The position numbers and the translations under genes were made by a program. Shown here piece by piece: positions 3,237 to 56,973 of a DNA stretch of 64,000 nucleotides. This DNA comes from Hansfordia pulvinata (taxonomy: Eukaryota > Ascomycota > Sordariomycetes > Xylariales): contig BJKQ01000024.1 in assembly GCA_006538405.1 (NCBI GenBank), forward strand, positions 183,260 to 247,259, given 5' to 3'. A model generated the notes under the pieces. It saw only the letters and a program-made list of their open reading frames with translations. It was not told the origin of the DNA and did not search any database. Position 1 is the stretch's first letter. Each line of letters opens with the position of its first letter.

Positions 3237-3330
3237 ACGCACCCCGGTCGCATACGGTGCACCATATCACCCGAGTCAAGCAAGTCAATTTGATGCGGAT
3301 AGTGATAGCGATACGGTTTCCGACTTCTAG
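3237..3330 (+). pseudogene. Cassette copy A: 3' tail of the coiled-coil gene
   Basis: The translation ends in an acidic Asp/Ser repeat followed by VSDF and a stop, and matches the C-terminus of the coiled-coil gene at 25854-26576 nearly residue for residue. Upstream coding sequence is absent because the AT-rich block starts at 3236. This is a truncated gene remnant at the left edge of cassette copy A. Only about 30 codons remain, so it cannot be functional alone. Confidence 0.6.
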
Positions 3331-3451
3331 ATTTGGGTCGAGTATGGGGCAAGCGAGCTGGTTGGTAAACAAGGGTACAGTACAGCAAAGCCCTCGTGGG
3401 GACTGAATGCAGGCATAATCCTGGCCTGATGGCCCCTTAAGGGTTAGGAGT

Positions 3452-3703
3452 TTGTATTTCAATGTTGTTTCCAGTGTCGTCCGCATCAGCTTTTCTTATG
3501 TTGCCAAGCTAGATGTATCTGTAGACGAAATCTCTTCATCTGTTCGCCCAAAGATCATTGTCTCCTTAGCGAAGAACCCTACTACTGCGGAGTTAGATGA
3601 TGCCATCTTTGCGCGTAGATTGTCTGTTGGTCCCAAGATTAAGCCTCGCGTGCGGAATCCTTGCTTGCTTTCTGTTTGGAAGAGTACAATCACATTGCAC
3701 TAG
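3452..3703 (+). other. Open stretch conserved between copies A and B
   Basis: An 83-codon open frame (no ATG at its start) matches the frame at 25403-25732 on the minus strand at most positions, apart from an internal gap of about 27 codons. Both end with the same residues around the motif CLLSVWKSTITL. Conservation of an open frame through an in-frame gap could mean it was once an exon, but it may only reflect the overall similarity of the repeat. No family recognised. Confidence 0.3.
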
Positions 3704-3984
3704 TGTGGCAATCCACGCTGACTTTCTCAGACCATGCATTTCACAATCACATTGCAGTATTGTCGCATCCCCTAGGGCCAACAATTCCTGGAATACGAGA
3801 ACTGGAAACCAGCCAGATCTATGTCTGTGCAGTTTCCACCTTCTTCAAACGGTATGGCTGATAACATGATGGGTCCGTCGGTACCGCGCCCCCGGGTCGT
3901 ACGCGTAATCCACCTCAACACAGGGTTCCAGGCGCGTTCGACAGAGCATTCGCTCCACAACACGCACCCGAAAGCTAGCTAGAC

Positions 3985-4160
3985 GCGCCCGACCCATTTC
4001 CCCGCTGCATTCTCCCCATGCCCTCCATCATCCGCTATGTTGCCCCACTTTAGTCCTGCTGTCTCCTGGAAGGCGTTCAGAGCCGAACAGACGAGTCGGA
4101 CGCGCATTCCAACGACAGGCTGCTGCGCCTTGGTCAGAACTTGACAAGTGACTTTCAAAG
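3985..4160 (-). pseudogene. Copy A: remnant of the basic-tailed cassette protein
   Basis: The reverse strand encodes a short run around VTCQVLTKAQ and VVGMRVRLAC, matching the start of the protein at 50558-51223. It then jumps to sequence matching that protein's C-terminal basic region; the central domain is missing. The copy at 24907-25110 has the same internal deletion, so the loss came before the A/B duplication. No intact frame remains. Confidence 0.55.
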
Positions 4161-4486
4161 TGGTGGTACTAATGATGGTAAGATTTGCAAAATGAAGGCA
4201 CGCTCCTTATTTTGAGCCATGGGGCAAGGTGGCAGTACGGGTCGTCAGTATTAGGTAATCTCAGTGCTAGACGACTCGAAACTGTTTTCTGGCCCTGCGA
4301 AGGCTTGTGGAGCATAAAGCGCTAAATTGAAAACTGCAGGCCTGCTTCCCGGCAGTGGGGGGGATTGGAGGGACATGAATCTGTGGATGCTGCCACCCGA
4401 AGCAAGCCGCTCGGCGGGTGGGTTAGAAAGTTAATGAGATCATGACCAGGCAGTATCGAGGAGGCAAGTTGATGATCGTTTCGCAC

Positions 4487-4693
4487 TCAGGGATTTCCAG
4501 TCTGACAACCAAGACCAACGCGGGCATGCCGTCTCACACGGTTTGAGAATATGCCTATTCCTTGGATGAAATCTTTCGCCGTATCCTCGTTTGTGATGAA
4601 TGGGTGCTCTGCCTCGAACCGAGACAGCCGCAGATTCTGGGCGATCTCTCTGCTATCCCAGTGCATAGTACCGCTCATCACCACGTCAGTCAA
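4487..4693 (-). pseudogene. Copy A: 3' fragment of the JmjC-type gene
   Basis: About 68 codons match the C-terminal part of the JmjC protein at 51532-53172, from VVMSGTMHWDSREI through the helical segment with FITNEDTA. The frame is then lost before the usual KLWE region. The iron-binding HxD part is absent. At about 4693-4700 it joins dynamin-derived sequence in the same orientation, so the 5' two thirds of JmjC and the genes normally between them were deleted. Confidence 0.65.
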
Positions 4694-4699
4694 GGATTA

Positions 4700-5070
4700 T
4701 GGCGCATGCATCGCAGCGCTTGGACAGTGCACCAAGATGTTCAGGGTGTGGTTGTCTTAAAGTTCTGCGAAAACATTCGTATCGGGGCACAAGGATCTCA
4801 TTGTGCGATGGATGAAGTGATGTAAGACGAGGATGACGAGACTCAGGTGGCAGTACATGATGAGCTCCTATGAGACTGGTTGATCTTTGAACAGAGTGGC
4901 AAGGAGGCCGCCGACAAACTGCGTTCATTAGAAGTCAATTCCAGTCCGCATTGTCTTGTTGACTTACAATACCAAGGTTTTAGCCTTTGCTGCTTCTATA
5001 GCCAGCCCTCATGTGATCGAGGATACACCCATTTGGGACGGTGCCTTGCATATCTCGACAAGTAAACGCC
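4700..5070 (-). pseudogene. Copy A: dynamin-like GTPase fragment
   Basis: On the reverse strand this matches the dynamin gene at 15830-18365 across the splice junction at 17567-17615. The end of exon 5 reads YRSSKG, then a stop, then NLGI. A 49-nt intron with a GTAAGTC donor and CTAATGAACGCAG acceptor follows, then exon 6 beginning FVGGLLATLFKDQ. A TAA interrupts where the other copy has Arg. Only about 110 codons of the stalk region remain and the GTPase domain is absent. This shows that the dynamin gene belongs to the duplicated cassette. Confidence 0.65.
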
Positions 5071-15829: not shown

Positions 15830-18365
15830 ATGAGTCTTTCCACGCTCGAGACTTCTCAAGGTAACTCCAGTACACTCACGAAAATCGATAAAATACGAGA
15901 GTGTCTGGGTGCTTCAACAATCTCTCTACCACAGGTGAATAGGCCTTGAATATAGCAAAACAAGGGGGCTAACGATCTTTGTAGCTTGTCGTTGTGGGAG
16001 ACCAGAGCTCCGGGAAAAGTTCTGAGCTGGAAGGAATCACAGGTTTTGCATTCCCAAGGGGCGCTGAGCTGTGTACCCGATATGCAACACAGATCACCTG
16101 CCGAAGAGAGTCCCAGCCAAATGTGTCAATTTCGATTATCCCGCACGGTCACGCTAATCCTCAAGAGAGAGAGCCTTTGAACGGGTTTAACGAAGTTCTT
16201 TCTGAGATGAAGAGTGAAGAGCTGGTGCGAATTTTCCAGAATGCCAATCGAATCATCGGGATCGATCAGGCTGGGTCCGCTTTCAGTGAACATGTGCTCA
16301 AGATCGAGATCTCCGGACCAGAGGTAAGGTAAGAGAAATCCGAAATGAGTATCCTGAGACTGGCAGGAACTAGCAAGAACATTTTACCGTGATCGACGTG
16401 CCTGGAATCCTCCGTCGCGAAACGTCAGGTAAGTATCAAAGCTGAATCAGCCCCAAACCCCGGGTATACGCTGATATAATTAGGTTTCACTACCGAGAGC
16501 GACATTGATCTTGTGAGGGGCATGGTAAAAGGTTTCATGAAGGACACAAGAACTATGTGGGTATACTCTTCAGATGAACATTTGGTTCTTTCCGTATCCC
16601 TAATAAGCTCTTCGCAGAATCTTGGCCATAATTCCCAGCAACGTCGACCCGGCCACACAAGAGATTTTGAAGCTGGCAAAGCACGTGGATCCAGACATGA
16701 AAAGGACGATGGCGGTCCTCACAGAGCCGGATCTCAACATTGAACGAGCCACATAAACAATTGCGATCGATCACGTCACAGGAAAGCGCGGTGATTTGAC
16801 TTTGGGATACTACATTGTCAAAAATCGCGGCCCGGACGACTCCTTGAAAACCCTTGCAGAAGGCCAGCAGGAGGAGCGTGCGTTCTTCAGAAATGAGCCT
16901 TGGTCGGACCTAGAGCACACACAAAGAGCTGGCATTGAGGCACTCAAGATTAGAGTGCGCGAATTGCTATCCGAGCTCATCAAGAGGGAGTTCCCCAGAC
17001 TCAGATCTGAAGTCAAAGACTCCCTCGTGGAGTTACACGAACAGAAGGGAATGGGATCATCCAGAGCTACCGCTGCTGCTCAATTTGATTATTTGTCAGA
17101 CCTGAGCGACAAACTCCAACAGATCGTCCGGGACGCCCTGACTGCTCGCTATTCCAACCACAGACTTCTACATGAGAAGAGAAGCCTTCGACTTATCACC
17201 CGAATAGTTGAAGTCAATGAGCTGTTTTCGGAGAATCTGAGAAGCAGGGGTCACTCGTGGGCTTTTGAGGCTTTTGAGAAAGCAGATTCAACTACGGACG
17301 TTGATGATCTTGGCGTGGAAATGAGCGACGGCGGATCAAATGAGGAGCTTGATGCTGAACTTGATTTATCAAGCCCCGAGCCATTCGAGACCTACCTTGC
17401 TCATTGTTCCAGCCTTCAGCAGCCGTACAAACTTGGGAGGCTTTATCCCGAGATTGGCAAGTATTTCGAGACCCGTCAAGACATGAAAGACATCGTCGCA
17501 GATGGTCGTATCCTGGATCACATCAGGTCTGTTTACAGGAGCAGCAAAGGCCGGGACCTCGGTACAGTAAGTCAAAGATACGAAGTGCACTGGGATCAAT
17601 TTCTAATGAACCCAGTTTGGCGGCGGCCTCCTTGCCACTCTGTTCAAAGACCAGTCAGTCTCATGGAAGCCTATCATGTTCTGTTACCTGAATCGGGTGA
17701 TCCTCATCTTACACCACTTCATCCATCGCACAATGAGATTCGTCTGCCCCGACACGAATGTTTTCGGAGAACTTTGGGACAACCACATCCTGGACATCTT
17801 GGTGCACTGTTACGACAAAGCAATTGATCATGCCAAGTTCATCATCAAGACCGAAAGGGAAGGAACTCCATACACCCTAAACCACTACTTCAACGAGAAC
17901 TTGCAAAAGTCGCAAAATACTCGCTTGGTCAAGCTTGTCCAAAATGCCGGGATAACTGCCACCAACAATGCCGCCATTCGCAGGAAGAAAGGCTTCCGAG
18001 ACGATGATGAACATCCAGAGGATGGAATTTTTATTTCCACGGAGAGGCTTCAGAGCCTTTCAGTATCTAAGTCGAATTCCGAGCAGACCATGGAACAGGT
18101 GCACGACGTCTTGGAAAGCTACTACAAGGTCGCCAGGAAACGGTTTGCTGATGTCGTTTGTCAGCAGGTCGTGGATTACATGCTCTTGGACAGTCAAGAC
18201 GGACCACTTCATGTGTTCAGCTCCAAGTTTGTTCGGGGGTTGAGCGATGAGAACCTGGAAGACATTGCTGGAGAATATGTTGCAACAAAAAGTCAGAGAC
18301 TGAATCTAGATGCAAAGATTGAGAGATATGAGGAGGCTTGGAAGATTTTGAAAGGACATGTTTGA
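15830..18365 (+). pseudogene. Fungal dynamin-like GTPase with one in-frame TAA (cassette copy B)
   Basis: Six exons join in phase: 15830-15934, 15985-16323, 16374-16428, 16484-16556, 16618-17566 and 17616-18365 (757 codons). The start MSLSTLETSQ and helix KIRECLGASTISLPQ lead into the P-loop GDQSSGKSS. The switch-I region is CTRYATQITC and G3 is DVPG. G4 reads TEPD where dynamins have TKPD, so the Lys that contacts the base is lost. The stalk/GED part runs to the end, including TPYTLNHYFNENL. A TAA at 16754-16756 interrupts the conserved ERATQ region where CAA (Gln) is expected. Apart from this the gene is open. Such proteins remodel membranes; fungi carry many paralogues of unknown role. It faces the RING-patatin gene tail to tail. 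Read-through or assembly error are alternatives to true loss. Confidence 0.8.
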
Positions 18366-25732: not shown

Positions 25733-25853
25733 ATTCCTAAACCTTAAGGGGCCATCAGGCCAGGATCAAGCCTGCACTCAGTCCCCACGAGGGTTTCGCT
25801 GTCCTGTACCCTTGCTTATTATCCAGCTCGCTTGCCCCATAGTCGACCTAAAT

Positions 25854-42089: not shown

Positions 42090-43143
42090 CTAATTCAGCG
42101 CCTTCCTCGATAAGGACGAAGCAGTATCAATCGGTGTGGCCCCCAGCCTGTTTGGTAGAAGCCACACTTGGGGCCTTGCAGACACTGTGGCGCCCATGAC
42201 CCACCAACCCCCTCTAACGGCTTCGTGGAGAGGGGTGTCTACATTGACAACCTGAACGTCGATGAAAATTTCGTCGGAATTTGAAAGAGACCTGAGTGTG
42301 TTCAGTGAGTGTTCAGCGACGTTTGTTCCAATGATGTCTTCCAAAAACTCGAAAGATTGGCGTCTTTCTAGAGGGGTCTCGTCGATTTGGATCAGCCCCC
42401 AACAGAAGCAATGCCCAAACGAGTTGATCATGCTTGTTTTGGGCTGCCAAGGCCAGCACCGACTCTCCAGGGCGAACTTCTGAATCAATGTTCACCCCAT
42501 AATGCAGAATATGTCGAACCGTGCCCAAGTTCCCGTGCCACGATGCAACGTGTAGAGCTTGAGGTGGGGACTGTCCAGACGGGCGTGATCATTTGCTGTA
42601 ACCAGGATTACTAAGATCGTTGAAGCCGTACAGCGGACTGCTGCCGCCGTCAATGCAATGATACCTGCGTGGTTCTGTATCCTGGTATCAGCCTATGGTC
42701 AGGGAAGAAGGTTGACTGAAGCATCATGGTCCTGAGTGGCCGCACAGATGAGGGCAGTACTCCCATCTGCACTGGTGGCATCCGAATTGAAATTTGTAAC
42801 GTTGGCCAAATGACGTAAATTTGCAGTGTGTCCCATGGTCGCGGCTAGTGTTCCAATGATATGGTTTGTATTGATCAGCATCCAGCTCAACGAACCCATT
42901 TTCATCGGCATAAGTGCTGAGCAGCGACAATACAGCGCCTGTAATACCTGAAGTTACCGAAAGGGAAATTGCCGTTTCCCAGTCTGTATCTGGAAGATGG
43001 AAAGGAACATCGGGGTGGCCGATGAGAAGTTGTGCAATGTCTTCTCTTCCAGCTTTGATGGCCAACATCCGTGCTATTTGTTGCAATTGATTCGACCTGT
43101 GGAGGTCAACCCCCGGTAAATGCAAAGAATGGATGACACACAA
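42090..43143 (-). pseudogene. Ankyrin-repeat gene remnant
   Basis: Ankyrin-like units appear on the minus strand in several frames: LAIKAGREDIAQLLIG, then ADGSTALICAATQDHDASV, then GTVRHILHYGVNIDSEVRPG, ALAAQNKHDQLVWALLLLGA and VDTPLHEAVRGG. Frame changes at about 42710, 42600 and 42300, without convincing introns at all of them, suggest a decayed gene. No N-terminal domain was seen. A second ankyrin remnant starts just to the right on the opposite strand. Confidence 0.5.
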
Positions 43144-43169
43144 TATCCATCCGAGTTGAGCAGATTCTG

Positions 43170-43682
43170 ACAGCGGCGTACAGAGATTCTCGTCGGGGAG
43201 GTTGGCATCGATATGAGGTCTCTCGAGAAACTTGCAGATCTCCGGAATGAACTTGGTCGGACAGCATCGAACAAGTCATCAAATCACGGCCGTAGGAGGA
43301 TCGTGGAAGCACTATTACAGCATGGGGCGACGATCACAACGAAAGCCCGCAGATTCATAAGGCTGCAGATTCATAAGGCCGCAGATTCATAAATGCCCTC
43401 TCAAAGGCATCGCGAGAATGGAACTTGGGAATCGTCAATATGCTTCTCCAAAACGGTGCGGAGGTCAAATCTTCAACTGCGGGCCACGGAAGAATTGCCC
43501 TCGCCTTTCTTCAAGCAGAAGCGAAGGCCAACGCGTACGACATGGCGTACGACAGAATTCTTCACGCGGCTGCATCAGGAGGACATGTGAAAGTTGTGGA
43601 GTTGCTCCGAGAACGAGGCGCCAGCCCCAATGGTGTTGGTGCGCTCAAGGCGCCCCTGAGGAGTGGTCTGGCAGACACATAA
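43170..43682 (+). pseudogene. Ankyrin-repeat fragment broken by a 16-bp triplication
   Basis: The frame RRRIVEALLQHGATITTKARRF is followed, after the tandem repeat at 43349-43396, by ASREWNLGIVNMLLQNGAEV, then RILHAAASGGHVKVVELLRERGASPN. Removing two of the three repeat units (32 bp) would make one continuous ankyrin frame reading ARRFINALSKASREW. The fragment ends at 43682. It faces the ankyrin remnant on the other strand head to head, so the locus has been rearranged. Confidence 0.55.
43349..43396. repeat. 16-bp tandem repeat, three units
   Basis: Units GCAGATTCATAAGGCT, GCAGATTCATAAGGCC and GCAGATTCATAAATGC follow one another without gaps. Two extra units add 32 bp and shift the ankyrin frame. 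Confidence 0.9.
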
Positions 43683-43793
43683 GCAGGCTCCTGTCACTAA
43701 ACCAAACTCGAGAACCATTTTCTGAATCAGATAATTTTATATTTGAGCAACGGAGACGTCACCACTTCTTCGCAAACACACGCTTTATAGATA

Positions 43794-43816
43794 TGTGTGT
43801 GTGTGTGTGTGTGTGT
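43794..43816. repeat. (TG)n microsatellite
   Basis: An uninterrupted TG run of about 11 units, about 110 bp past the ankyrin fragment and 312 bp before the kinase-like gene. The stretch 43683-44127 has no gene otherwise. Confidence 0.9.
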
Positions 43817-44127
43817 TTAACCGTGCTTCCTTGTTATAAGAACATCTTCAGCCACAGCTTGCAAGCTACCTGGTATGTTGACTCAATCATTCCGCTGGCT
43901 ACCCTGGCCAGTCTAGCCATAGTTGGTTAGGTGAGTGCAGGCTAACATCACTGTTTGGGAGACCTATTTCAGCGGGTCATTGGAATGCATGCTCTACAGC
44001 ACTCAGCTACGCTAAGCCAATCACGGACATATCGGTCTCCAGTTTCTGGACCGGTACTAAATGTAAACAACGCGACTCGCATCGCGTCACTACGCAATTG
44101 ATCATTCAACTACCAACACCAGTCGCC

Positions 44128-46395
44128 ATGGACAATCGGGCAGATGAACTCCAGAGGCTCAGGCTACTTCTCGAGGAAGTGAGGCGCCAGCGAGAAGAAT
44201 CGGATCGCCAGCGAGAGGAATCGGATCGCCAACGAGATGAAGAAACCCGCCGACGACAAGAAGCAGAAAAGGCCGCTCAGTCATCACAACCACAATCGCT
44301 CCAAGATTTTCTCGAAGGCTCCCATGAGCTAAGCCTCGCCATCAAAGTTGTCACTGAACCTTCTTCGACCACCCAGGGCGACACGACAAATCCAACAGGG
44401 CGAATCTACCCGCGGCAGATCGTCCACTGGCAGTCCTTCCCCTCCGAGCAAGAAGCTATCTGGAACGTCTTGTCGACAGGTCAATCGTTCCCCTCCAATT
44501 CCGTGTTTCCGTCTTCGAACCAGCTTGATTACGTCAAAACCATTATCCGCCCTATCAGCAGCGAGCTCGGACTGCGCGACTTCGAGCGTGACACAGTCGA
44601 GAACATGGTCCGCAAATTGTTTGATGCCACATACAATGATAAGCACCTGCGATCGGCACTGGACTTGAATGGCACACTCTCGTTCGAGAGCCATACGAAT
44701 TTGGGCGAGATTGATGAGTCAATCATCACGTCCATGGAAGACATGTCCATTGACACTCGCCATCGACAGTCAGCTGCTCCAAGGATCAGGCGGAAGGCCC
44801 GGGGCAAGGGCAATCGCGCCGACCAGTTTTGCATCTACGAAGATGCATTTGGTCATAAGGTTCCTGCTGTGGCAATCGAATACAAACCCCCTCACAAGCT
44901 GAGCCGCGACACCCTTGTCACTGGTCTGTTATCCGGTATCCAACCCGAGAAGGATAGCATCAACCAGTCTGGCGAAGGCTTCGAATTTGCTGCCCAGAGG
45001 CTCTCGGCTGCCGTCATCACACAGTTGTTCTCATATATGATTGGCAAAGGCGTGCAGTACGGGTATGTTTGCACTGGGGAAGTTATTGTCTTTCTGCACA
45101 TCCCGGACGACCCTGCCATCGTCGAGTATTACATATGCATCCCCAACGAGGATGTGATAGATGATGACGAGGCCAAGCTACACCGGACTGCTGTGTCTCG
45201 GATTTTCGCCTTCGTTCTCCAGGCTGTTCGTGCTGAGCCACCCCCAGCGGCATGGCACGATGCGGCGGAAAAGCTTGAGATCTGGGCTGTCGAATACGAC
45301 GACGTGCTGAAGAACATACCACCGAGTGAGCGGAAACCAGTGCGGGCTTCCCCTTACGTTCCCTCACGATGGAAGGGCTTTTCTCGATCCCCAATTCGCA
45401 CTCGGTCCCGATGCAAGCCGCACGGAGACGATTCACAGCAGAGAGACAGTGATGATGATGACGAAGGAAATCATTCATCGCCATCGCCAACGCCGGGTCC
45501 ACATGCTCGTTTCGCGCAGAGGACCTCTCGTGTGTCACAGACTCGGGGTCAGCGGAATAGTCAACGGCATACCGAGAGCGTCACCGGAAAAACTAGAGTT
45601 CATGACCGTCCTTATTGCTCCCAGGAATGTCTCTCTGGCCTTGCGCGTGGGGGCTCCATGGACAGGAGGTGTCCAAACCTGAGGGATCACAGGAAGAAAC
45701 ACCCCAAGCTATCCAGGTTCATCCAGCTCATTCGCGGCCAACTCGCCTATGATCGAGGTCGCAACGCGGATTGTGCTCCTCTTTATCTCTCCGGTGCTCT
45801 TGGGGCGCTCTTCAAAGTACGACTGTCTTCGCACGGTTACACCTTTGTCGCCAAGGGCATGGAGCGTCTCGACTTGGATCGTTTACAACATGAAGCACAG
45901 GTTTACGCTCGGCTTGAACCCTTGCAAGGGCTATGTGTGCCAGTGCTTCTAGGGATGGTCGAACTGGTTTTGCCTTACTACTACGACCATGGCGTTTTTA
46001 CCCATTTCATGCTTCTGAGCCATGGCGGGAGGCCTTTGTTCGACCGCACCAGCCAGGATGAGAAACAGACAATCCTGCGCAAGATTGATATTGCTTATCA
46101 AAAGATACACCGTCTCGGAGTGCTCCACCGCGATGCTGAAGCGCGGAACCTGCTTTACGACGAGCGACGAAGAGAAGTCATGGTGATTGATTTTGAGAGG
46201 TCTGCATTGAGTGATATGAAGGAACCTGTACATAGCTGCCGTCTGCCACTCGGGGAACTGGATTCGGAGCAAATCATGCAAAGGAAGAAGAACGATTTGG
46301 AAGGCCTGAAATCTGCTCACAGACCCGGAAAACCAGATTGTTTTCAAGCCGAGCTAAACAATGTCAGGCACAAGGTAGTTCGTATCTTGGGGTAG
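44128..46395 (+). CDS. Kinase-fold protein with N-terminal coiled coil and ExK domain, 755 aa
   Basis: First ATG at 44128 (ATGGACAATCGG); a single exon. Residues 5-50 form a coiled coil with a repeated REESDRQ unit. Residues about 60-420 form a domain with the strand VPAVAIEYKPPHKL (E251-Y-K253), like the ExK half of PD-(D/E)XK nuclease folds. An acidic/Ser linker follows, then a Cys-containing PYCSQECL segment. The last 200 residues are kinase-like: Gly-rich SGALGALFKV, FVAKG (K576), HRD at 667-669 with the following Asn (AEARN), and DFE at 688 instead of DFG. The frame is fully open with good codon usage. It belongs to a large fungal family of kinase-like proteins expanded in accessory regions. 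Crinkler-type effectors also pair restriction-like and kinase domains, but that comparison is inference. Confidence 0.7.
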   Translation: MDNRADELQRLRLLLEEVRRQREESDRQREESDRQRDEETRRRQEAEKAAQSSQPQSLQDFLEGSHELSLAIKVVTEPSSTTQGDTTNPTGRIYPRQIVHWQSFPSEQEAIWNVLSTGQSFPSNSVFPSSNQLDYVKTIIRPISSELGLRDFERDTVENMVRKLFDATYNDKHLRSALDLNGTLSFESHTNLGEIDESIITSMEDMSIDTRHRQSAAPRIRRKARGKGNRADQFCIYEDAFGHKVPAVAIEYKPPHKLSRDTLVTGLLSGIQPEKDSINQSGEGFEFAAQRLSAAVITQLFSYMIGKGVQYGYVCTGEVIVFLHIPDDPAIVEYYICIPNEDVIDDDEAKLHRTAVSRIFAFVLQAVRAEPPPAAWHDAAEKLEIWAVEYDDVLKNIPPSERKPVRASPYVPSRWKGFSRSPIRTRSRCKPHGDDSQQRDSDDDDEGNHSSPSPTPGPHARFAQRTSRVSQTRGQRNSQRHTESVTGKTRVHDRPYCSQECLSGLARGGSMDRRCPNLRDHRKKHPKLSRFIQLIRGQLAYDRGRNADCAPLYLSGALGALFKVRLSSHGYTFVAKGMERLDLDRLQHEAQVYARLEPLQGLCVPVLLGMVELVLPYYYDHGVFTHFMLLSHGGRPLFDRTSQDEKQTILRKIDIAYQKIHRLGVLHRDAEARNLLYDERRREVMVIDFERSALSDMKEPVHSCRLPLGELDSEQIMQRKKNDLEGLKSAHRPGKPDCFQAELNNVRHKVVRILG

Positions 46396-47482
46396 CCTTG
46401 TATGAATGATGAAATACTAGGCTCTGACACAATGTAGCTCTAGAGCTAGTCTTTGAACATGATTACAGTCCTAAATCCAGCACAGACTTTGTCCAATTTG
46501 TGAAATGAAAAGCCCGGCTTAAGTCTTAATGGCAATCGATGCATACTTTATGGAAAACCGACTCTTTGAGTATTTCATTGCCTTTCTGCTTTCGCATCGC
46601 TCGCCTCGACAGGTCGCAGTGGGCGAGAAACTTAGGCTTGCTTGGTGAAAGCACGCCTCTGCACTGGGGGACTAAAGAAGAACCTCAGTCGTGCCATTTT
46701 TTAGCGAGCTTTCTGGGCTATCTTAGCGCATCTGGAGCCTATTTAGCGATCCATGCGCGGACCCAGTAAATCTAATTCCTATTTTAATACCCTCTGAAAC
46801 CGTCATACCAACCGCGAAAACTGGGTGCAACGCAGTCCCATCGCTTTACGGAGCATTCAAGTCAACTTGTGACTCAATGATGCAGATAATCGTGCCAGGT
46901 GAGATTTTTTCAGTGGTTGCGAGAATCTTCAAGTTCTATAGAGAGACGTAGTAAGCTATCTGTAAGCTGGCAGCGGTGACCTGCAGGTTACTGCCAAATT
47001 CAGGGCTGGCCATGATTGGCAGGGCATCCTGATGCTTCCTAGAAGTGGAGGTATTTCCGATCCCGTAGCTGACATTTTTGCGAAGCAAGATAGACTTTTA
47101 AATTACAATTTTTGAAGAAACGGTTGTTTTGGTTAAAATATATTGACTCGGGCCCCCAAACTCCTATCGAAGGTATTGCCCTCGTTGCTCCTGGCGTCGT
47201 GAAGTGTGTAACTGTTTTTAAGTCGCGCATTCCTTCAAAAGATGTGACTCCAGGCATGTAAAATGAGTTTGAATGCATCCTAGGCAACCCGCAGAGGGGA
47301 TCTTCATCTTCCATCGCTCTCCGACCCTTATTCGTAATTTCTCACACACTCCTCGATCCCTTCCGTAGACAACTCAGAAACGACTCAAGAAACTTGCTGT
47401 ACTTTGTCAAGCCGTTTCGCTTAAGATAACTCGACTTTCGCAAGAGTCCAGGGCTCTATACTGTCAAAAATGCCAAGTAATT
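46396..47482. other. Intergenic; no supported gene
   Basis: Short open frames only. The segment is the convergent region between the kinase-like gene and the ferric reductase, so it should hold both 3' ends and terminators. No structured element was recognised. Confidence 0.4.
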
Positions 47483-49213
47483 TCACAAACCAGCTACCCC
47501 ATTTCCTCCTTTCTCTATCTGCCCGGGCCTGTATTCAACCTCAGCAAAGTGGATGTCGGCATTTTGAATTGCCTCCTCCCTGATGCGACCCGCGAATCCC
47601 GCATCACCACATGCTGAGAATCGTCAGTACATAAACAAATAAGATTTAAATCCCCCACCGTGAACTTACCGACAACGATACTTTTACCTGGTGACTTGAT
47701 ACCAGCACTTATCTCTTTATAGATACCTTTGTCATATATGTTTGAGCTCTGGTTTGGATACAGACAATGCCAATATGCGTTGGGAGCAAAAGGAGGACTG
47801 CGCCGCTGTGGAGACGGGTAGACGCACCAAATGCAGAAGAGCCTCTGGGAAGTATTAGCAATCATAATTCCCCATGGGCTATAGCAGAAACATGTACATT
47901 GGACGGGTCAAGTTGTTGTAGAGACTGCAGCTCGTCCCGGAGCCATTTTTGCTGTGAGTTTTGCTCCAGAACCCAGAAAAGATCTATCTTTCGTGTTTTA
48001 TCTCGAAATGGACGGTTTGCTGAATGGGTTCTCGACTCATTTTGAAGTTTTCGCAACTCCGTGTCGTGAGCCTGGCGTCGCGCAAGGTCGAGTGCGTATG
48101 GTAGTACGCCTGCTATTCCAGCTCCCTTAGCAGCTAGAATGACGTTTTCGAAGCGATTAAGCTTGAGGTCTTGTCCATAGGGCCCGTCAAGAAGAACGCT
48201 GCGTAGGCTTTCAGGGGTTTGAAACAATCTCTCCACAGATCCCTGTCTTTTCATGAGGAAAAGTATAGAGGACCGGCTGTCTTCACCTCTTCCTGGGGTC
48301 CACCATGCAACTGTCATAGGCAGGCCCTGCGCCCTATACCTGAAGGGTCCATGGTGAAAATACAGGTAAAAGTAGCATCCTGGGTAGACGACCAACCCTC
48401 GACGATTCTCCACTCGAGCGTGCAGGAGATCCTGGGTGGCCCTTACATCGACCCTGGCGCTGCCGATATATAAGCATCGGGTTAAGCGAAAGATTGTAGT
48501 GAAAGCCCAGAAACCACATGAGCAGCTCGCAATCACCTTTGCCAGGGGGCCCGGCAGCGAGAAAACATGCCACATGACAGAGGCAAGAATGAATAAAGAG
48601 AGGACAAAATGGATCCTCCGAAACAGATCATGGTGTATGCGGCGGACAATGCAAATGGACGCAAGACCGATGAGGAGTAGCGACAAAGAGGCCTTATATG
48701 GAGTGTCAGTAATTCTAATCAGAACCAAAGAAGCGAGGTACTTACACAGTATCCCGAAGTGGTCATCTCAGGGTAAGATTGAGGAGGCAGTAGCGATATG
48801 ACAGCATGAATAAGAGCTTCAATGATAGCTACTCTCCCGAACCAATGATGTGCAAGATAATAGTGTGGTAATGGAAACCCGATAAAGCTCATGAAGGGAT
48901 TTGTCCTCCCTCCGAAGTACAAAGGAACTAGATTGACCAAAGCAGCGAAAGCGGCACGTTTTGATAAACTAGACCGGTCTCGGACTGAGTAGCCAAGGAC
49001 TAGGCCATTTGTAGCGAGATATACTGTGAGATAAATCACCTCCAAACGGCTGATGCTTCCCGTGTAGCCGTTGCGCGAGATGACGAGTGGGTATTGAACG
49101 TGGGACCTGAAGGCGTGACCAAATCTAGCGACAATAAGAAGGGCGATCGGTCGCAGCGTGAATAGAATAATGATGGACGCAAGCGTCAGTCCATAGACGA
49201 CTGAAGGCTCCAT
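47483..49213 (-). CDS. Ferric reductase-like transmembrane flavoprotein (FRE family), 522 aa
   Basis: Four exons on the minus strand, 48746-49213, 47898-48692, 47670-47844 and 47483-47613, with introns of 53, 53 and 56 nt, all in phase. The membrane part has bis-heme His pairs in PLPHYYLAHHWFGRVAIIE/LIHAV and FRRIHFVLS/WHV. The FAD part begins LHARVENRRGLVVYPGCYFYLYF. The usual HPF(T/M) FAD motif reads GLPMTV here. The NAD(P)H part has LLDGPYGQDL, AAKGAGIAGVLPYAL, IDLFWVLEQNSQQKWL and the terminal CGD, then EVEYRPGQ. The start is uncertain: the frame is open to 49252 and lacks the N-terminal signal and first helix found in 600-700 aa relatives. It would reduce Fe(III) chelates at a membrane. 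Such FRE paralogues are common in fungal accessory DNA. Confidence 0.8.
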
Positions 49214-49734
49214 TGTGAAGGTGAGACTTACAATTAAGCCTCGAATGGTCATAATTGGCGATCCATATTATCTATGTAGAAGCATACGTACCTTCATTCC
49301 GTGCTGGGTATGGCTGTACACAGCAAGACTGAATTTGGCCATGTGGATCACCCCCACAAATGCCATTTTCTGTCTTTTCTTTTAAGTTGCGGGCGACTCT
49401 GAATGCCGATAACCGCCTAACGTACTTTAAGCCAATTCAGCCTGACATTTTACTGCTTTCGGTTTTGTTCAAGTGCATTCCTGTCGTCTTGTGGAGAAAT
49501 GACCAACAAGCCAGCGCAAGTATATTCATGAATGACTTGGAACGTCTTTGTCGTTTCTCACGTCAGGCCCCCCATGTCAACCAAGTATTGACTGTACCGC
49601 CGTGTTTAGTGGCAAGCAGATAAAGCCGTTTGTTTCTGTGAGAGATTGGGCAGACACCCGAAATGTCCAAGGACGGTTCGTCACGGGAGATTTTATATTA
49701 CTCGAGAAGCAGTTGTCTTCACATAGAAAAAGCG
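49214..49734. other. Region upstream of ferric reductase; no supported gene
   Basis: An intron and an N-terminal exon of the ferric reductase could lie here: a CTTTGG-rich stretch at 49260-49330 follows the open frame. No signal peptide exon could be identified. The rest shows only chance frames. Confidence 0.3.
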
Positions 49735-49850
49735 CTGTTGGGCGGAGAGGCCATCAGGGAGGCGCCCACGAGGTGCACGACACGAAGAGGTCCCAGTACC
49801 TTTGAACCTGACACCGACAGCGAGAGCGACACCATTTTTTACTTTCAGTT
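49735..49850 (+). pseudogene. Copy C: probable tail of the coiled-coil gene
   Basis: The translation GGEAIREAPTRCTTRRGPSTFEP, broken here, is followed by the acidic run DTDSESDTIFY. It resembles the coiled-coil gene tail (GAPYHPSQAS, then DADSDSDTVSDF) and has the orientation expected if this is the left end of cassette copy C. The similarity is short, so the call is tentative. The position relative to the basic-tailed and JmjC genes is the same as in copies A and B. Confidence 0.4.
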
Positions 49851-50557
49851 GCATGCACTTCGGCGGTTGGGCATCCCTCCCAGCCCCAGTAGCCAAAGCT
49901 CCACATTAACCGCCGAAGTTAATCTCGATGAGTCTGGATGTCGGATGCAGGCGTGATCTGGATATTTGATGTTAGTACTGGGGTTGAGCGGAGACTGATG
50001 CTTAATCTGGCTCGTTTGTACAGTGAAAAGAAATCGGATTCGACCGCGGTCATTTGCAGCTATCGCAAAGATGGCAGTCGAGCATATTGCATCATCCTAT
50101 CGTATCGTGCATCGGGACTAGGTGAACCTACCTTGGCCAACTTGTCGGCAAACCTACTTCGGTGTTGGTTATTGATTTCGGTCATTATATGCGAAGGTAG
50201 TTACACTGCATAAGCGTGAAACAAGCCGCTTCACCAGCCAACATTTTAAATCGTGCTTTGAGAGAAGAATGAGGCAGATATCCATGCCTAGTCATAACCA
50301 ATGATCCCTTATTGTGTTCGTAGAACATCGGCTGCATCGATGCTTGCACGGCTTTATCGAGTCAAGGATGGACCAATGAAAAATGGTTGGGTAAATACTT
50401 CAGTACCAGCCTGTCAAATCAAACAAACATGCATACAGCCCGCATCCGAAGGACTCCTCCAAGTGAACATTTTGCCTAGCCAGCTAAGCGATGCTCATGC
50501 ACAAGACAACTCTTGGGCTACGCGATGTGCCCCAACACCATGCGCGCCCTGTCCCTG
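49851..50557. other. Copy C interval between coiled-coil tail and basic-tailed protein
   Basis: The stretch around 49938-49990 (ATGCAGGCGTGATCTGG and onward) aligns loosely with 3410-3480 of copy A. The conserved open stretch of copies A and B is not recognisable as such. No gene was supported. Confidence 0.35.
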
Positions 50558-51223
50558 CTAGGTACGTCGTGCTCGTTTCCCCCCTTTGGCATCACCAAGC
50601 TCTTCATCGTCGAACTCCTTGTTGCCCCGTTTCAGTCCTGCAGCCTGGCGCCCGCCCCTTCCGCGACCTGGTCGGCGAGCCGCTGCCCCATCAAAAGCAC
50701 GTCTTTCCGAGGTAACCCTGTCATCCCCCACAAATTGAACCCCTTCCATTGGTGACAACATTGACGACTGCACAGCATGGGGTTCCCGTTGAACGCCCAC
50801 GGGACTTGGCGTTGGCGCTAAGAGCATCAGGGGCTCATTGGTGGAGGTGCTCACACTGTAGCTCTGATCATCGCAACAAAGTAAAACAAAATGGTGGAGG
50901 GGCTTCGTCCATGCAAGGTCGACCTGAATGGTGGGCCAGGGGGCGTTTCCTGCGTATTCAGCAATGGCGAATACAACAGAGCACACAGGATCGGTGCCTA
51001 GGATTGAAGCTGTTGGCATGCATAGCTGTTTCCAATGATCGACGAGGCCGTTAGGAGAAGTGATTCCTTCGTAATAGGTCGATAGCGCCAAGCACGCAAG
51101 CCTGACACGCATGCCCACAACAGGCTTCTGTGATTTTGTAAGTACTTGGCAAGTGATATCCATCGCGACAGCAGTCAAATCAATGGCAATGGTAGTGCAA
51201 GAGCTCAGCGAAATAATGCTCAT
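50558..51223 (-). CDS. Basic-tailed cassette protein (copy C), possible transthyretin-like fold
   Basis: Open frame from ATG 51223 (221 codons) or ATG 51163. The start MDITCQVLTKSQKPVVGMRV, the spacing to WPTIQVDLAWTKPLHHFVLL and YSVSTSTN vaguely recall 5-hydroxyisourate hydrolase/transthyretin (HVLD at the start, YRGS at the end). The catalytic His and the YRGS tail are absent, so an enzyme role is unlikely and the fold call is weak. The C-terminus is Gly/Arg-rich and basic (GRGRGGRQ, KGGKRARRT), like a nucleic-acid-binding or nuclear tail. It lies directly downstream of the JmjC gene on the same strand. Copies A and B keep only its two ends. Confidence 0.45.
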   Translation of the reverse strand: MSIISLSSCTTIAIDLTAVAMDITCQVLTKSQKPVVGMRVRLACLALSTYYEGITSPNGLVDHWKQLCMPTASILGTDPVCSVVFAIAEYAGNAPWPTIQVDLAWTKPLHHFVLLCCDDQSYSVSTSTNEPLMLLAPTPSPVGVQREPHAVQSSMLSPMEGVQFVGDDRVTSERRAFDGAAARRPGRGRGGRQAAGLKRGNKEFDDEELGDAKGGKRARRT

Positions 51224-51531
51224 GTCAGCATGAGGGAACGCCTGTCCATTACGATACCACCAAGGGATTATAATTCCTACAGGATAGTACTCAAAACCGT
51301 TTCCTGATCTGCTGACGGAGTGGGGCCACGGCGCTTGACCAAAAACTGTTCCCAAATCCTGCAACAGTGTAACTTGCAACAAAAATGGAACCAGTAGATA
51401 TGACTTTCAGCACCAGGACAGAAGAAAATGACAAGACCGTGCTGAAATCGCAAAGAAATCGAAAAACACCAGGAACCATGTTCATTTGCCTGCGGCAACG
51501 ATAACTTATCGCTGCTCAGAAAGAGAACCGG

Positions 51532-53172
51532 CTAACTGAAATTCTCAAACCACTAATTCAGATTAGAGACGAGCCAGCAACAGTGAGCAGGTACATACCT
51601 TGACAATCTTTCTGCATTCTTCGATATCAACGGTAGAGCCCCATGACCAGGGCAAACACTCTTTCTCCCAAAGTTTCAAAATATGTCTTATTTTCGGAAT
51701 GAAATCCATCGCGGTATCTTCGTTGGTGACGAATGGGAATTTCGCCTCCAGCTTCGACAGCTGCAGAACTCGTAGGATTTCCCTGCTGTCCCAATGCATA
51801 GTTCCACTCATGACCACGTTAGTAAGGGAATACGGTGCATGGATTGTCGCGCTTGGCTGAATGAGAAGGCATCCGGGATACAGATAGATCCCTATAGGAG
51901 CTCCTAGCTGCATCGTGCTCGATGATGCCCAGTCCGAAAGGATGCGTGAATGCCACACTGGCCACAGCTTCTCGCCGCAGTCGGTGAACACCGTGGTCAT
52001 GACGCCATGACGATCAATGTGTGGCATCGAAAAAGCGCCTTTCTTGGCACATAATTGGAATCGCGTCGAGTCAAGCAAGTCTATTGCGACGGGTGAATCC
52101 ATCTTCCCACTCTCCGTCTTGGCGATTTCCATGACAGAGTAAGAGGGCAATGAAGTCAGGCAAGATGGAGTCGGATGGGGCTTGCAGCCACCAGATTCAA
52201 CATGTTGATGGACCGTGAGCCGGGTCTTGCAATTTTCGGATGGCCGTTCGTGATGGCAGGGACTTGGGGGTAGCCAAGGGGTAGATCTGTCATATCTTTG
52301 TTGGAAGTCGTGAACGTCGAGAGTTGGGAAGGACGATAGATATGTGACGAAGGAATCCATAGAAAGACAGAACATATTTTCATTCAGCTCTGCGGGAATC
52401 ATGAGTGGTACTTTTGGGCTTGACTTCTCCAATATGCTTCTCGCTTCTTCGTTTGAGCAAACAACAAATTCATCGTCGTCAAAGTTGTCTTTCGACATGT
52501 AGCCGGCTGCCGATAAAGGATGTCCGACAGTACATTTTTGAATGATCTCAAGGAAGGCAGGGCCCTCCTTCTGCAGGCGAGACTGGCTTGAAGCATCATC
52601 GAGCAGACTGCCAGATCGCTTTTCGCCGTTTGTATGGCTGCTTCTGCGCTCCGACGATATTTCTGAACGACGTTGGACCACTGACTGCAGATGTGACAGT
52701 TCAGAATGTGTGACTTTGCCTGACTCTGAAGAATCACTTTCCCACATCGGACCGGTTCATGAGCCAGTTTGATATGCTTCTCCAGGGCATTGCTTCTGAC
52801 AAATGATGCCTTGCAGAGGGTGCATTGGCGCCCGGGATCTCGCCGGGCGCAATTGTGGCGTCGAGCTTTGGCCCCGTAGAAAACTACCAGACATCGGTTG
52901 CAGCGGGCATGAGGTTGTCGCTGGTGGCGAGGGAAGGAATTTTGGCTGAATTTCTGGAGGCACAAGCTGCATTGTTGGACACTCATGATGGTGTCCCGAG
53001 ACGGCGAGGAACGTGGCCGACGAGGAACGTGGCCGACGAGGAACGTGGCCGACGAGATGGGGGAGCCTTCTGATGCCTTCAGGGCAGCCGCGTTGGCTCT
53101 ACAGCGATCCATCGCGGTAGGTTGGTCAAATTCTGTGGATGGCAAGGCCGTACCGCTACAGTAACGCGTCAT
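51532..53172 (-). CDS. C2H2 zinc-finger plus JmjC-type (2OG-Fe) protein, cassette copy C
   Basis: The model joins 52753-53172, 51599-52684 and 51532-51552 to give 508 aa. The last intron (46 nt, GTATGTAC donor, TTAG acceptor) is clear. The first (68 nt, weak GTCCGA donor, CTGCAG acceptor) is the only in-phase way found to connect the finger and JmjC frames; a frameshift is the alternative, and JmjC could then start at ATG 52747. Cys/His-rich fingers span 68-138, the second being canonical (C117, C120, H133, H138). The JmjC core keeps all three iron ligands: H362 and D364 in MPHIDRHG, and H422 in TIHAPYSL. It ends KWFENFS. JmjC proteins are usually histone or protein demethylases/hydroxylases; this fungal subgroup has no known substrate. 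Copies A and B are dead. Confidence 0.65.
53006..53053. repeat. 16-bp tandem repeat, three perfect units
   Basis: GAGGAACGTGGCCGAC occurs three times without gaps inside the first exon of the Zn-finger/JmjC gene, upstream of the fingers. Two extra units (32 bp) would shift the frame, so the true ATG may be nearer the fingers (ATGTCGGTACAGC-like context near 52986) if the expansion is recent. Confidence 0.9.
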
Positions 53173-53748
53173 CGCCAGTAGCTCGCAGCTGGCACCATTT
53201 GCCTTCGCTGGCAGGTTTTAGATTAAAATGGGTCTATAGTAGCAGCCCTCCAATCATATGACCCAGAAATCTCCACAGCCCCGCATTGGCTGTGTGTTCG
53301 CGTGAGAAGCTGGGATCCGTGCCGAACCTCGACTTTCATGCAACAACTTGCCATTGTCAGACATATCAAATCTTTAAATATCAGATATTAGCGCGGATCA
53401 GGGCCGCTATCATGCAGGCCACGATGTGAATGTATTACGTTCAGCAAGGACGAATTGAATTTAGTGGTAGCGACAGTGTATAAACTAAACTGGACCGAAA
53501 ACGTCGAAGTGTGGTAGCGACAGGCGAATATGATAAGAATGCACAAAACCCACATACACAAACAGTGAGAACCAGCTACATGTGAGTACCAGTCAAATAC
53601 AGCAGTGACGAACGGAAACAGACGCGGGTAAATAACAGAAAGACAGACGATAATGGTAAATCAGACACTGTTCGTGAATTAGTAGGTGCTTGGGAACAGG
53701 CGCGAACACCAATTTGACTTAGAACGTGAAACTTACCGCTTCTGTGTA
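53173..53748. other. Intergenic between JmjC and gene X (copy C)
   Basis: No open frame of note. Both flanking genes are on the minus strand, so the segment carries the gene X 3' end and the JmjC promoter. The sequence around 53370-53400 is locally AT-rich. Confidence 0.4.
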
Positions 53749-55575
53749 CTAATCGCCCCCCGAATCCGAAGCAGGAGCTTCCAGGTCGTAGCGAACTCTC
53801 CTGCCTGGCCTCTTGGGAGAAGATCTGGAACCACCCACCATCGGATGTTTGGAGTCTGTCGCGGTAAGGGTGCGATCAGGCGTCTGTGATGGAGAAGTGA
53901 CAGCTGTTGTTCCAGAACGGGGGGTCCAGCCTCCCTTGGACTGCTGGTGGACGCTGGAGTCTGACTCTACGTCCGACATTTCTTGGTCCGAAGCGGGAGA
54001 TCTTGACACTGTTCGTGCGAACCCTCGCCCCGCACTTGGTGTTATCGATTGATAGGTTGTTGGTTTGACTTTGTTGGTGTCTTCTATAGACTGTACCAGC
54101 ACTGGCGCTTCGAACGGCAACATGCCGGTTGAGTCCGGGATCAAGCCCTTCGAGATAGCCGCATGAGGCTGTGGGGTGCCATCTCGGGCTCGGTGCCTTG
54201 CGTACGTAAATTCTGTTTTCCTCTGGCCATAAACCCAGTTGAACGTAGATCTCAGAGTGATGGTGACGAAATCCTCATCCCGGAATTTCCCCAAAATGAC
54301 AGTGACGGGATAAACCACCCGTTCCTTGCTCACGTTGCCTCGATCTGGGGCGCTGGCAACAAGGAGTAAGTCGAAGTCAGAAAACTTTTTCCCACTGAAG
54401 CTATCAGCAGTCCGATACTCCAAAGGTGATGAGCCGCGACTTGCGATCCAAGCCGTCTTTTCCTGTCGACATTCAGACGCAGGAACTAGTGCACCTGCTT
54501 GATACCCAGGAAAGTCTGGGTTTCTGCCCTGGAATGCAACCAGAAGCTGGCCGCGTGGCGTGAGCCCAATAATGAGTGCATCGACTTTTGTCCCGGAGAC
54601 AATATCCAAGTAATGCATTTTCTCAACGGCTTGGCTGGAAACGGTGTTCTGCAGTTCCTCTCCCGTGGGAAGCCTAGGCGGGAACGATTTCAAGATTTTT
54701 TCAAGGTTGTGGTCATCAAGTAAGCTTGGTTGCGAGTGTCCCGACTTAGTCATAGAAACTAAAGATTGAACGGCTCCTGTCCTCATGCCTCTTTCGTCCT
54801 GGGACGGCCCATTTGGAATTGTCTGTTGTCGAGGTAAGAGACCTGGGGAGCGTCGGGCCTGGACTTTTTGCTGCGTTTCTTCCGATTCCGCGCCGCTTTC
54901 AACGTGGGATTGAAATCTTTGGCGACTTTGTGGCAAATGCCCTTTCGTACTCCGGTCAACCGGTGACCTGTCTTGGCCGTCTCTTGCAGGAGGGCCATCG
55001 TGAACTGGCTGTTGCTGAAGAGCGACCCTTGGAGACCTGGCACGCTCACCGCGAGTATCTGAGTTACCGAAAGAGCTGAAAATACCTTTCTCGCCGGCAA
55101 ACTTGGAAAAGGGCTTCGTGAGCTTTTTCCCTTCCTGAGTAGCCACAGTAACCGCCTGTGGATGTGAAGCCTCGGTGTGCTGATCAAGTTTCTTTGCTAG
55201 CTCAGGGCGGGATTTCTTGCTCGGGCGGTTGGTTGAAGGTGCTTCTCTGATCTTCACTTCAAGATCTGAATCTTGACGCCCTCGCTTCGACGGAGGAGCA
55301 TCCGGGCGGAATTTCTTGTTCGGGCGACCCAAAGAAGGTCCTTCTCTGATTTCGACCCCAGTGTCAGATGCTTGGTGCTCCCTTTTTTCAGTGGAAATCT
55401 CTGAGCGCAACTGTTTTATCGGGCGGCTGACAGCTGGCCTTTGTCGAATCTCTTCCTCTGACTGATCGCGTTCCAAACGACTGCGTTTCGTCGCGGAAAG
55501 GCCCGTTTGAGCACGTTGACCTTCCTTTTCTGTCGCGTCGTTAGCGCCTTTTAGGTAGGGTGGAGGCCTGGACAT
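53749..55575 (-). CDS. Gene X: basic, repeat-bearing unknown protein (cassette copy C), 608 aa
   Basis: Open frame from ATG 55575. Residues about 30-130 hold three imperfect 35-40 residue repeats of the form E-I-R-x-x-P-x-x-x-R-P-x-K-x-x-R (EIRQRPAVSRPIKQLR, EIREGPSLGRPNKKFR, KIREAPSTNRPSKKSR), rich in Lys/Arg. Residues about 300-470 form a folded block (HYLDIVSGTKVDALIIGL, GQLLVAFQGRNPDFPGYQAG, FRDEDFVTITLRSTFNWVYG). The C-terminus is Ser-rich and basic (PKRPGRRVRYDLEAP). Comparison with copy B shows a further conserved N-terminal segment, 55576-55786, starting MLRSRRKNDE and containing EFLEKLRKAKSAYD. It lies in two other frames, so the present frame is probably 5'-shifted. No family recognised. 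Charged repeats suggest a nuclear or nucleic-acid-associated role. Confidence 0.6.
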   Translation of the reverse strand: MSRPPPYLKGANDATEKEGQRAQTGLSATKRSRLERDQSEEEIRQRPAVSRPIKQLRSEISTEKREHQASDTGVEIREGPSLGRPNKKFRPDAPPSKRGRQDSDLEVKIREAPSTNRPSKKSRPELAKKLDQHTEASHPQAVTVATQEGKKLTKPFSKFAGEKGIFSSFGNSDTRGERARSPRVALQQQPVHDGPPARDGQDRSPVDRSTKGHLPQSRQRFQSHVESGAESEETQQKVQARRSPGLLPRQQTIPNGPSQDERGMRTGAVQSLVSMTKSGHSQPSLLDDHNLEKILKSFPPRLPTGEELQNTVSSQAVEKMHYLDIVSGTKVDALIIGLTPRGQLLVAFQGRNPDFPGYQAGALVPASECRQEKTAWIASRGSSPLEYRTADSFSGKKFSDFDLLLVASAPDRGNVSKERVVYPVTVILGKFRDEDFVTITLRSTFNWVYGQRKTEFTYARHRARDGTPQPHAAISKGLIPDSTGMLPFEAPVLVQSIEDTNKVKPTTYQSITPSAGRGFARTVSRSPASDQEMSDVESDSSVHQQSKGGWTPRSGTTAVTSPSQTPDRTLTATDSKHPMVGGSRSSPKRPGRRVRYDLEAPASDSGGD

Positions 55576-55855
55576 CTTGCCTTTTCTGGAATGGCCTCGG
55601 ATCCAACCAGAATGTCATTGCAAGCCTCTTGGGTGAGATTTCCATCGGCATTCTTCTTCTTGGACAAGACAATCTCGTATTCTTGCGTATGTCATAGGCA
55701 CTCTTTGCCTTTCTCAGCTTCTCCAAAAATTCGAACTGGTCTTTATCAAAGACAGTCTCGTCGTTCTTGCGACGTGAGCGCAACATCGTTCAGTTGAAAT
55801 GACATGAAGCGACTCAGTGAGCAAGACCTCTGCTTTTCAATAAGGTGTTCGCTTT
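55576..55855. promoter_or_regulatory. N-terminal remnant of gene X and divergent start region (copy C)
   Basis: 55576-55786 (minus) encodes the N-terminal block conserved with copy B, but needs two frame changes to reach the long frame. To the right, the RING-patatin remnant begins at about 55856 on the plus strand. The two starts are under 100 bp apart, so a shared promoter is inferred as in copy B. Confidence 0.35.
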
Positions 55856-56973
55856 ATGGCGAGCTTCTGTTATTTTTTTTCTTCGGCTCCGGGTGCGATA
55901 GTTATATCTGCGTGGAGAACGCAGATGAAGCACCAATCGACGAACGTGGTTTTTGTTGCGCCTGGAATCGGTTTTCCGAACCTGGTGGACCTTGCAGCGT
56001 GTCCGTTTTCAGGTCTTGGTCACTACCAGTGGGGCAGGTGGAGCATGGCCAGACGATTTGTGGAACCTGGTACAACTCACGTCCAAAGCAGGTCATACTT
56101 CGTGTGTTACGTGCCAGCGTCTCTGAAAGAGTCGACGGTTGATGAAATCAAATTATGAACCCTGTTGTTGCAACCATGGGTCACTGGCTTCAAATCAATG
56201 CAAGCCCTCGCCAACTATATTTGAAGGCACTGGGCGCTGTTTATCAGATATTCGACCACCTCGGGCACAAAAAGCCGTCCGTTGTCCAGGTCATCAGGGG
56301 CGAAGATATCACAATGCATGGCGAACTTTATCACAACCGACCACCAGGATCCAAACGCAATAGACTTTGTGCTCACATGTAGGTCCAAAAAATACGTTTC
56401 CCTCGTCGATTGCGAAGCATCTCTTCGCTTCAAGCCCGCCCTCGAAATGACGACTTTCTGACGCAAAACGCCGTGGGTGACACGCCGTTCGGAGCTTGGT
56501 CCCTGTATGGTCAGCTATCAAGATAGCTGTCAGTTTACTACATGGTTTAATCGAAGGCATTGTTCAAAACGCTGGGATATTTGTAGATTATATGCGGGCT
56601 TGTCGAGCATACTGGAGCTTCCTGCACCGCGGGTCCAGCTCCAGCTGTAAGACATTCGATCCGGATCGGGGCCTCTCCTTGTGAGCAAGATTTTCGCCGA
56701 TGAAAAATTCCGGCAAAGAATAAGGGGATATTTATTGAGGGTTTGACAGATGACAAACCCTACGAATATGTACAATACAAGCGTGACGACGTAGAGACAA
56801 TGTTCTGGGACAGCTCCGATAGCCTCAATCATCTATATGTATCCTTACAAGTCAACTATACCATTTTTTCAGAGGTGGAAAAGAAGTCAAGTCGAAGACA
56901 TGATTTGAGCCGCGAATTTGGAAGTTTGCTACCTTGTTCTCTCGCTATTTTGTCTGTACTGGAACTCACGTGA
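55856..56973 (+). pseudogene. RING-patatin gene, decayed 5' half (cassette copy C)
   Basis: Plus-strand blocks match the N-terminal half of 18544-21060. YLKALGAVYQIFDHLGHKK and VVQVIRGEDITM correspond to LQEFYSAYKVFDDLGD and VIQVIGGG. SKKYVSLVDCEASLRFKP corresponds to PKRPVLLVDSGAALRFKP. DVETMFWDSSDSLNHLYVS corresponds to DMEKLFWDSFESLHLLPTS. Stops and frameshifts separate them. The remnant also keeps a more 5' block (NLVDLAACPFSGLGHYQWG, RWSMARRFV) that copy B appears to lack. The RING and patatin-like parts are gone. Confidence 0.7.

Follow-up and report, generated by a model that had tools for sequence, protein, structure and literature searches.

In Fusarium poae gene duplications are described as concentrated on supernumerary chromosomes, where they escape repeat-induced point mutation (RIP) (PMC4994206). 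In Fusarium solani SB1 segmental duplication is reported to be extensive, both inside single accessory chromosomes and from one to another (PMC11835900). The conserved repeats of Colletotrichum higginsianum have been proposed as recombination sites for subtelomeric segmental duplications (PMC5576322), and an accessory chromosome of Metarhizium robertsii is described as carrying putative histones and histone-modifying enzymes (PMC10687773). Here we describe a stretch of 64,000 nucleotides (the window) from Hansfordia pulvinata in which genes for a dynamin-family GTPase, a RING-domain protein, a zinc-finger/JmjC protein and several others occur in repeated and partly broken copies. The window corresponds to positions 183260-247259, the right end of the 247259-base contig BJKQ01000024.1 (C24; other contigs are labeled likewise), in a genome of 46.8 Mb and 63 contigs. 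A short intron is predicted and the best-scoring protein matches are fungal, as befits a filamentous fungus.

The window is probably part of a small, repeat-rich and RIP-free accessory chromosome of approximately 1 Mb, a known kind of chromosome. We consider it likely that such a chromosome carries an ancient gene cluster, which was duplicated into two versions (B and C), unevenly kept and copied by segmental duplication. The ancestral cluster would have had the order dynamin, RING gene, gene X, C2H2/JmjC, transthyretin-like gene and ferric reductase, plus, toward B, a coiled-coil gene. An old duplication would have given rise to two versions approximately 30 kilobases (kb) apart, B on the inside and C on the outside, which lost different members in the window. 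Later, ordinary segmental duplication would have produced several further copies of the B-to-C stretch within the same contigs, perhaps through recombination between near-identical repeats. Working versions of the genes would thus be retained here and there in a mosaic of duplicates, and the set would not be a mobile element. In place of a puzzling three-copy cassette this gives a chromosome, probably an extra one, that is rich in repeats and where genes under purifying selection have been duplicated time and again, with losses that differ between copies.

The likeness to F. poae lies in the duplications that escape RIP on extra chromosomes. Its duplicates, however, are core genes (EBR1, Dicer2 and PKS8), and the main text of that report does not mention JmjC and dynamin (PMC4994206). 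F. solani SB1 is a different fungus, and the likeness concerns duplication as reported there rather than gene content. Whereas the duplications described from C. higginsianum are subtelomeric, the Hansfordia C-type copies lie mostly at contig ends without a telomere. The resemblance to the M. robertsii chromosome is one of description.

Homology and extent of the copies

The preliminary description of this DNA had read a cassette of six genes (coiled-coil, basic-tailed, zinc-finger/JmjC, gene X, RING-patatin and dynamin) three times in the window (fully readable in one copy and partly in the other two), with the shared members in the same relative orientation. Self-comparison confirms that the three places, A, B and C, are homologous, but not that six genes occur three times. 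At the DNA level A (3237-5059) matches 25947-24326 and 17810-17475 in B with 77-89% identity. It holds fragments of four genes (dynamin at 4.62-5.06 kb, the JmjC C-terminal end at 4.56-4.72 kb, the transthyretin-like gene at 4.06-4.21 kb and the coiled-coil tail at 3.24-3.33 kb) and is a deletion remnant of a B-type cassette. The A-type junction, in which JmjC is joined to dynamin, recurs at 258 kb of C23 and 38-39 kb of C29.

Protein-level comparison shows B (approximately 20.2-25.0 kb) to be collinear with, and inverted relative to, C (56.9-51.0 kb), the order having been retained at approximately 45-50% amino acid identity. The RING gene, X, JmjC and the transthyretin-like gene follow each other in both with unchanged relative orientation, and a ferric reductase stretch is also common to B (30.06-30.44 kb) and C (48.7-49.3 kb). 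Order and orientation are confirmed for these genes; the coiled-coil and dynamin genes have no match in C by tblastn (E 1e-3), where the RING gene is an N-terminal relic. Within the window, B retains the dynamin and RING genes, the latter with a break in its frame close to the start, and C retains X, JmjC, the transthyretin-like gene and the ferric reductase, with frame changes in the first two. The whole set of six genes is present in none of A, B and C.

The duplicated unit is larger than the cassette and forms a block of more than 40 kb (the superblock), with most of the B-to-C stretch copied as well. Copies were located by DNA search at C24:1-35 kb and C23:1-33 kb (inverted), C23:257-281 kb (same direction), C29:6-44 kb and C23:111-128 kb. 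An older inverted copy at C24:69-113 kb has 17 matching segments, all in order. B and C of the window appear to have lost different members after the old duplication, which is not true for every superblock. The RING gene is absent from the matches at C24:26-35 kb, and the A-type deletion junction forms the B side in two superblocks, C23:257-281 kb and C29:6-44 kb. An origin by separate insertion of every cassette was dropped as an explanation, since the longer block retains its order.

At least 78.2% of the window (82.3% excluding the AT-rich first 3,236 bases) is shared with another copy on small contigs, and 75.5% is copied at 85% identity or more. This coverage is a lower bound, taken from 6 of 6, 32 of 64, 14 of 22 and 19 of 36 matches in the individual DNA searches together with a scripted comparison of loci. 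The matches outside the count were short, weak, repeated or within the window, and all five distinct places on large contigs were counted. These large contigs (C1-C22) gave 636 bp of match in the DNA searches. As searched, the copies are confined to nine small contigs.

Copy counts are likewise lower bounds, with only the best genome-search candidates scored (in the DNA searches 3 of 31 for 44.0-64.0 kb, and 26 of 31, 14 of 15 and 19 of 21 for the others). C-type X occurs with 93-100% identity at 12 places on the nine contigs, including the window, with an older copy at 78%. The RING gene occurs with 94-100% identity at five places including the window; older copies lie at C24:120 kb and at C40:61 kb, the latter with four stops and five frameshifting gaps. 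Further copies are present in the genome, and the block is repeated far more often than the window shows. The case that had been set against the unit, a single local duplication, does not apply, as there were several rounds of differing ages.

Table 1. Coordinates of the cluster genes and related features in the window
Feature	Position	Strand	Basis or remark
AT-rich stretch bordering copy A	1..3000	.	19-30% GC; RIP-like dinucleotide indices, strongest in last kb
Copy A, deletion derivative of B-type cassette	3237..5063	-	coiled-coil tail, transthyretin-like and JmjC C-terminal fragments fused to dynamin fragment
B dynamin-family GTPase gene	15985..18362	+	Dynamin_N, Dynamin_M and GED over three open stretches
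Superblock, B-to-C stretch	17018..58313 (approximate limits)	.	recurs in order, with losses, on small contigs
B RING-domain gene	18547..20963	-	one frameshift near N-terminus in window copy; C23:240 kb copy intact, 791-amino-acid model
B broken gene X	21330..22912	+	tblastn of C-type X; several pieces, frames change
B zinc-finger/JmjC gene without JmjC active-site stretch	23625..24547	+	residues 224-390 of C-type protein missing
B transthyretin-like basic-tailed gene, detectable core	24906..25016	+	sequence comparison
B coiled-coil gene	25857..26699	-	two open stretches; selection without clear sign
B ferric-reductase relic	30060..30438	+	tblastn, 43-54% identity to C copy
C ferric reductase gene	47518..49267	-	Ferric_reduct and NAD_binding_6; 53-57% identical to Apiospora P0003
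C transthyretin/HIUase-like protein with basic tail	50561..51406	-	Pfam match under cut-off, E 0.05-0.06
C C2H2/JmjC gene	51566..52986	-	frameshifted in window; open in six sister copies
C gene X	53752..55786	-	681-amino-acid frame in C29:97 kb copy; N-terminal frame changes in window
C N-terminal relic of RING gene	56176..56901	+	tblastn

Genes of the cluster

Five of the six genes have been under purifying selection between the old copies. At synonymous divergences (dS) of 0.5-0.86, the ratio of nonsynonymous to synonymous divergence (dN/dS) is 0.25 for the RING gene, 0.16 for the dynamin 3' part (compared with the C24:119 kb copy), 0.24 for X, 0.16 for JmjC and 0.23 for the transthyretin-like gene. 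Reading these alignments in the two wrong frames raises the ratio to 0.86-1.92. The older partners are themselves broken in part, with two stops in X and one in the transthyretin-like gene, and with frameshifting gaps in dynamin (one), X (one) and JmjC (two). The coiled-coil gene has no selection signal in its one proper alignment (0.62 in frame versus 0.67 and 1.70 off frame). Between recent copies dN/dS is 0.22-0.53 for the RING and dynamin genes and approximately 0.14 for JmjC (9 differences). Recent C-type X copies, at approximately 0.9 on 18 differences, have no clear present constraint.

The C-type JmjC protein has the predicted fold of the KDM7/KDM2 demethylases, with the HxD...H metal ligands and the 2-oxoglutarate lysine retained. 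By its modelled structure it looks like a histone demethylase, a 2-oxoglutarate oxygenase of the KDM2/KDM7 type, and from its fold and residues this multi-copy protein may act as a DNA-targeted demethylase of histones or other proteins and so affect chromatin state. Fold and aligned metal and 2-oxoglutarate residues are shared with PHF2, PHF8, KDM7A and KDM2A, but identity to these is 13-16%, and C2H2/C2HC-type finger matches are present where KDM7/KDM2 proteins carry a PHD or CXXC domain. Pfam JmjC_2 is matched by 8 of 17 aligned family members, the C-type protein itself being unmatched. Six of 11 C-type copies are open over 502-509 amino acids, and the window copy over 397. In the B copy the metal site is missing.

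A predicted protein of Apiospora kogelbergensis (P0003) has a ferric reductase end fused to a JmjC protein, and its reductase part is the one that resembles the window reductase. P0003 may represent merged gene models, but it still places reductase and JmjC next to each other in another genus. Its order is reductase-JmjC, whereas JmjC precedes the reductase in the window. Only a short stretch of A. phragmitis P0007 is shared with the P0003 reductase, at the latter's end, and P0007 does not match the window reductase. No further cassette protein among those tested matched the Apiospora JmjC relatives. A conserved neighborhood elsewhere is seen for one pair only, clear in P0003 and short in P0007, and its reductase is not among the six genes originally listed. 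Literature searches found no report combining four of patatin, dynamin, JmjC, accessory chromosome and fungi, or three of Apiospora, JmjC, ferric reductase, accessory chromosome and mini-chromosome.

The RING gene had been labeled RING-patatin. The RING domain holds, barely (Pfam 21.3 bits versus a curated cut-off of 21), but patatin has no Pfam match. The expected motif region, presumably that of the patatin serine nucleophile, appears degenerate by eye, and the AlphaFold model, built from four sequences, is too poor to judge a patatin fold (pLDDT, the predicted local confidence score, of 44). Relatives elsewhere number two among 7,995 scored candidates; a Xylariaceae protein (P0002) is a relative, and none of 30 pattern matches in viral contigs was confirmed. 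Gene X has no relative among 7,992 scored candidates. A RING-gene relic (49%, six TAA stops) was also observed at C34:15216-15560, approximately 15 kb from a telomere-bearing contig end; C34 is outside the nine contigs.

The B dynamin gene is, by domain content, a member of the dynamin superfamily, with GTPase, middle and GED domains each matched above cut-off (PF00350, 6.7e-12; PF01031, 1.8e-18; PF02212, 6.9e-6). Beside it, at 12877-14146 (+), lies a PigL_N domain (E 1.6e-36). PigL_N is an N-terminal domain of fungal STAND-type proteins.

Small contigs and the origin of the copies

The nine small contigs together comprise 1,008,881 bases. Telomere repeats were found among them at the right end of C29 and the left end of C43 only, with a pattern that misses some arrays. 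Nine contigs with two telomeres are weak evidence for one chromosome broken at near-identical repeats. C-type copies lie mostly at telomere-free contig ends, otherwise approximately 28-35 kb (C29) or 60 kb (C43) from the telomere, and the left end of C24 matches the window from its first base. Contig ends were considered as true chromosome ends and rejected; six have no telomere (C24 right and left, C23 left, C32 left, C47 left and C40 right). RIP-like dinucleotide indices were found in 1 of 10 stretches tested, window positions 1-3000. The transition:transversion ratio between differing copies is 1.3-2.5. Abundant duplications that are not RIPped, as expected of an accessory chromosome, are thus present, for the window only.

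Several points weigh against this account. Accessory status is defined by presence or absence between isolates and is read here from one genome. The telomere pattern missed 4 of 12 arrays otherwise listed (both ends of C1, C9 and C10), so that arrays on the nine contigs may be overlooked, and two telomeres on nine contigs are possible by chance among 63. The searches used window sequence as probe, and the lack of duplications on C1-C22 holds for that sequence alone; by DNA they covered the window from 5100 on, and the absence from C1-C22 for 48.5-64.0 kb comes mainly from protein searches, the DNA search scoring 3 of 31 candidates. Distant dynamin relatives occur on C5, C1 and C6 at 28-40% identity, as does a RING-type match on C6 at 35%. 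Small pieces of the older C24 copy (76.95-77.35, 104.99-105.53 and 114.7-115.1 kb) are on the opposite strand. Over 7,450 aligned bases, C29:52.8-60.2 kb and C32:70.7-78.1 kb show no difference other than a single gap; this may reflect a very recent duplication or assembly redundancy. The order kept between B and C despite their divergence, together with the Apiospora pair, may moreover have been selected.

An alternative is a functional module for defence, allorecognition or chromatin control that selection holds together, with duplication secondary, an idea close to the earlier suggestion that six unrelated genes work or travel as a unit. The genes are real, five of them have been under purifying selection, B and C agree in order and orientation, and one Apiospora protein links ferric reductase to JmjC, of which a second bears a short trace. 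Against this, no window copy is complete, B and C lost different genes, recent C-type X copies have no clear constraint, and X and the RING gene have too few relatives among the scored candidates (0 and 2) for much to be learned from co-occurrence. The unit is unproven and the module unlikely. Joint travel is explained by large and recent segmental duplications, which also carry what lies from B to C, at least 78% of the window. A narrower version, quite doubtful, is that the accessory chromosome keeps its own chromatin module (JmjC, ferric reductase and X), which would keep silencing marks or RIP off and so permit massive duplication. In this version the ferric reductase could supply Fe(II) to the iron-dependent JmjC enzyme. 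Accessory Kmt6 copies described in Fusarium oxysporum (PMC12774646) are a precedent, and the JmjC gene offers a way to ask whether extra fungal chromosomes encode setters of their own chromatin state.

That a mobile element, for instance a Starship, spread the cassette as its cargo is very unlikely. Multiple near-identical C-type copies and a ferric reductase in the cassette region, a frequent Starship passenger, would suit it. However, the DUF3435 captain (PF11917) has no match in the genome, a weak negative in which no positive control rang, and homology runs past the cassette with break points that differ between copies, although a much larger element could be accommodated. Least probable, to the point of being nearly dismissed, is that the copies are largely assembly artefacts, that is, unmerged haplotypes or misjoined repeats. 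The identical C29/C32 pair and the several contigs that terminate inside the C-type repeat are what artefacts would produce, but most other copies compared differ by approximately 1-25%, and B and C lie in a single contig. Segmental duplication of an old cluster on a probable accessory chromosome is the reading we retain.

Neighboring features

The longest superblock stretch without a copy among the matches counted is 34681-38292. At 43882-46392 (+), in a stretch duplicated on C23, C24 and C32, lies an open frame of 837 amino acids whose C-terminus is kinase-like (Kdo/WaaP family, E 7e-7). The C29:101 kb and C40:80 kb copies lack the segment 57814-61745, which contains a protein-kinase-like gene; in them 57813 adjoins 61746. 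Next to copy A, at 6935-7712 (-), are collagen-like glycine-repeat open frames with a weak Pfam match (E 0.05).

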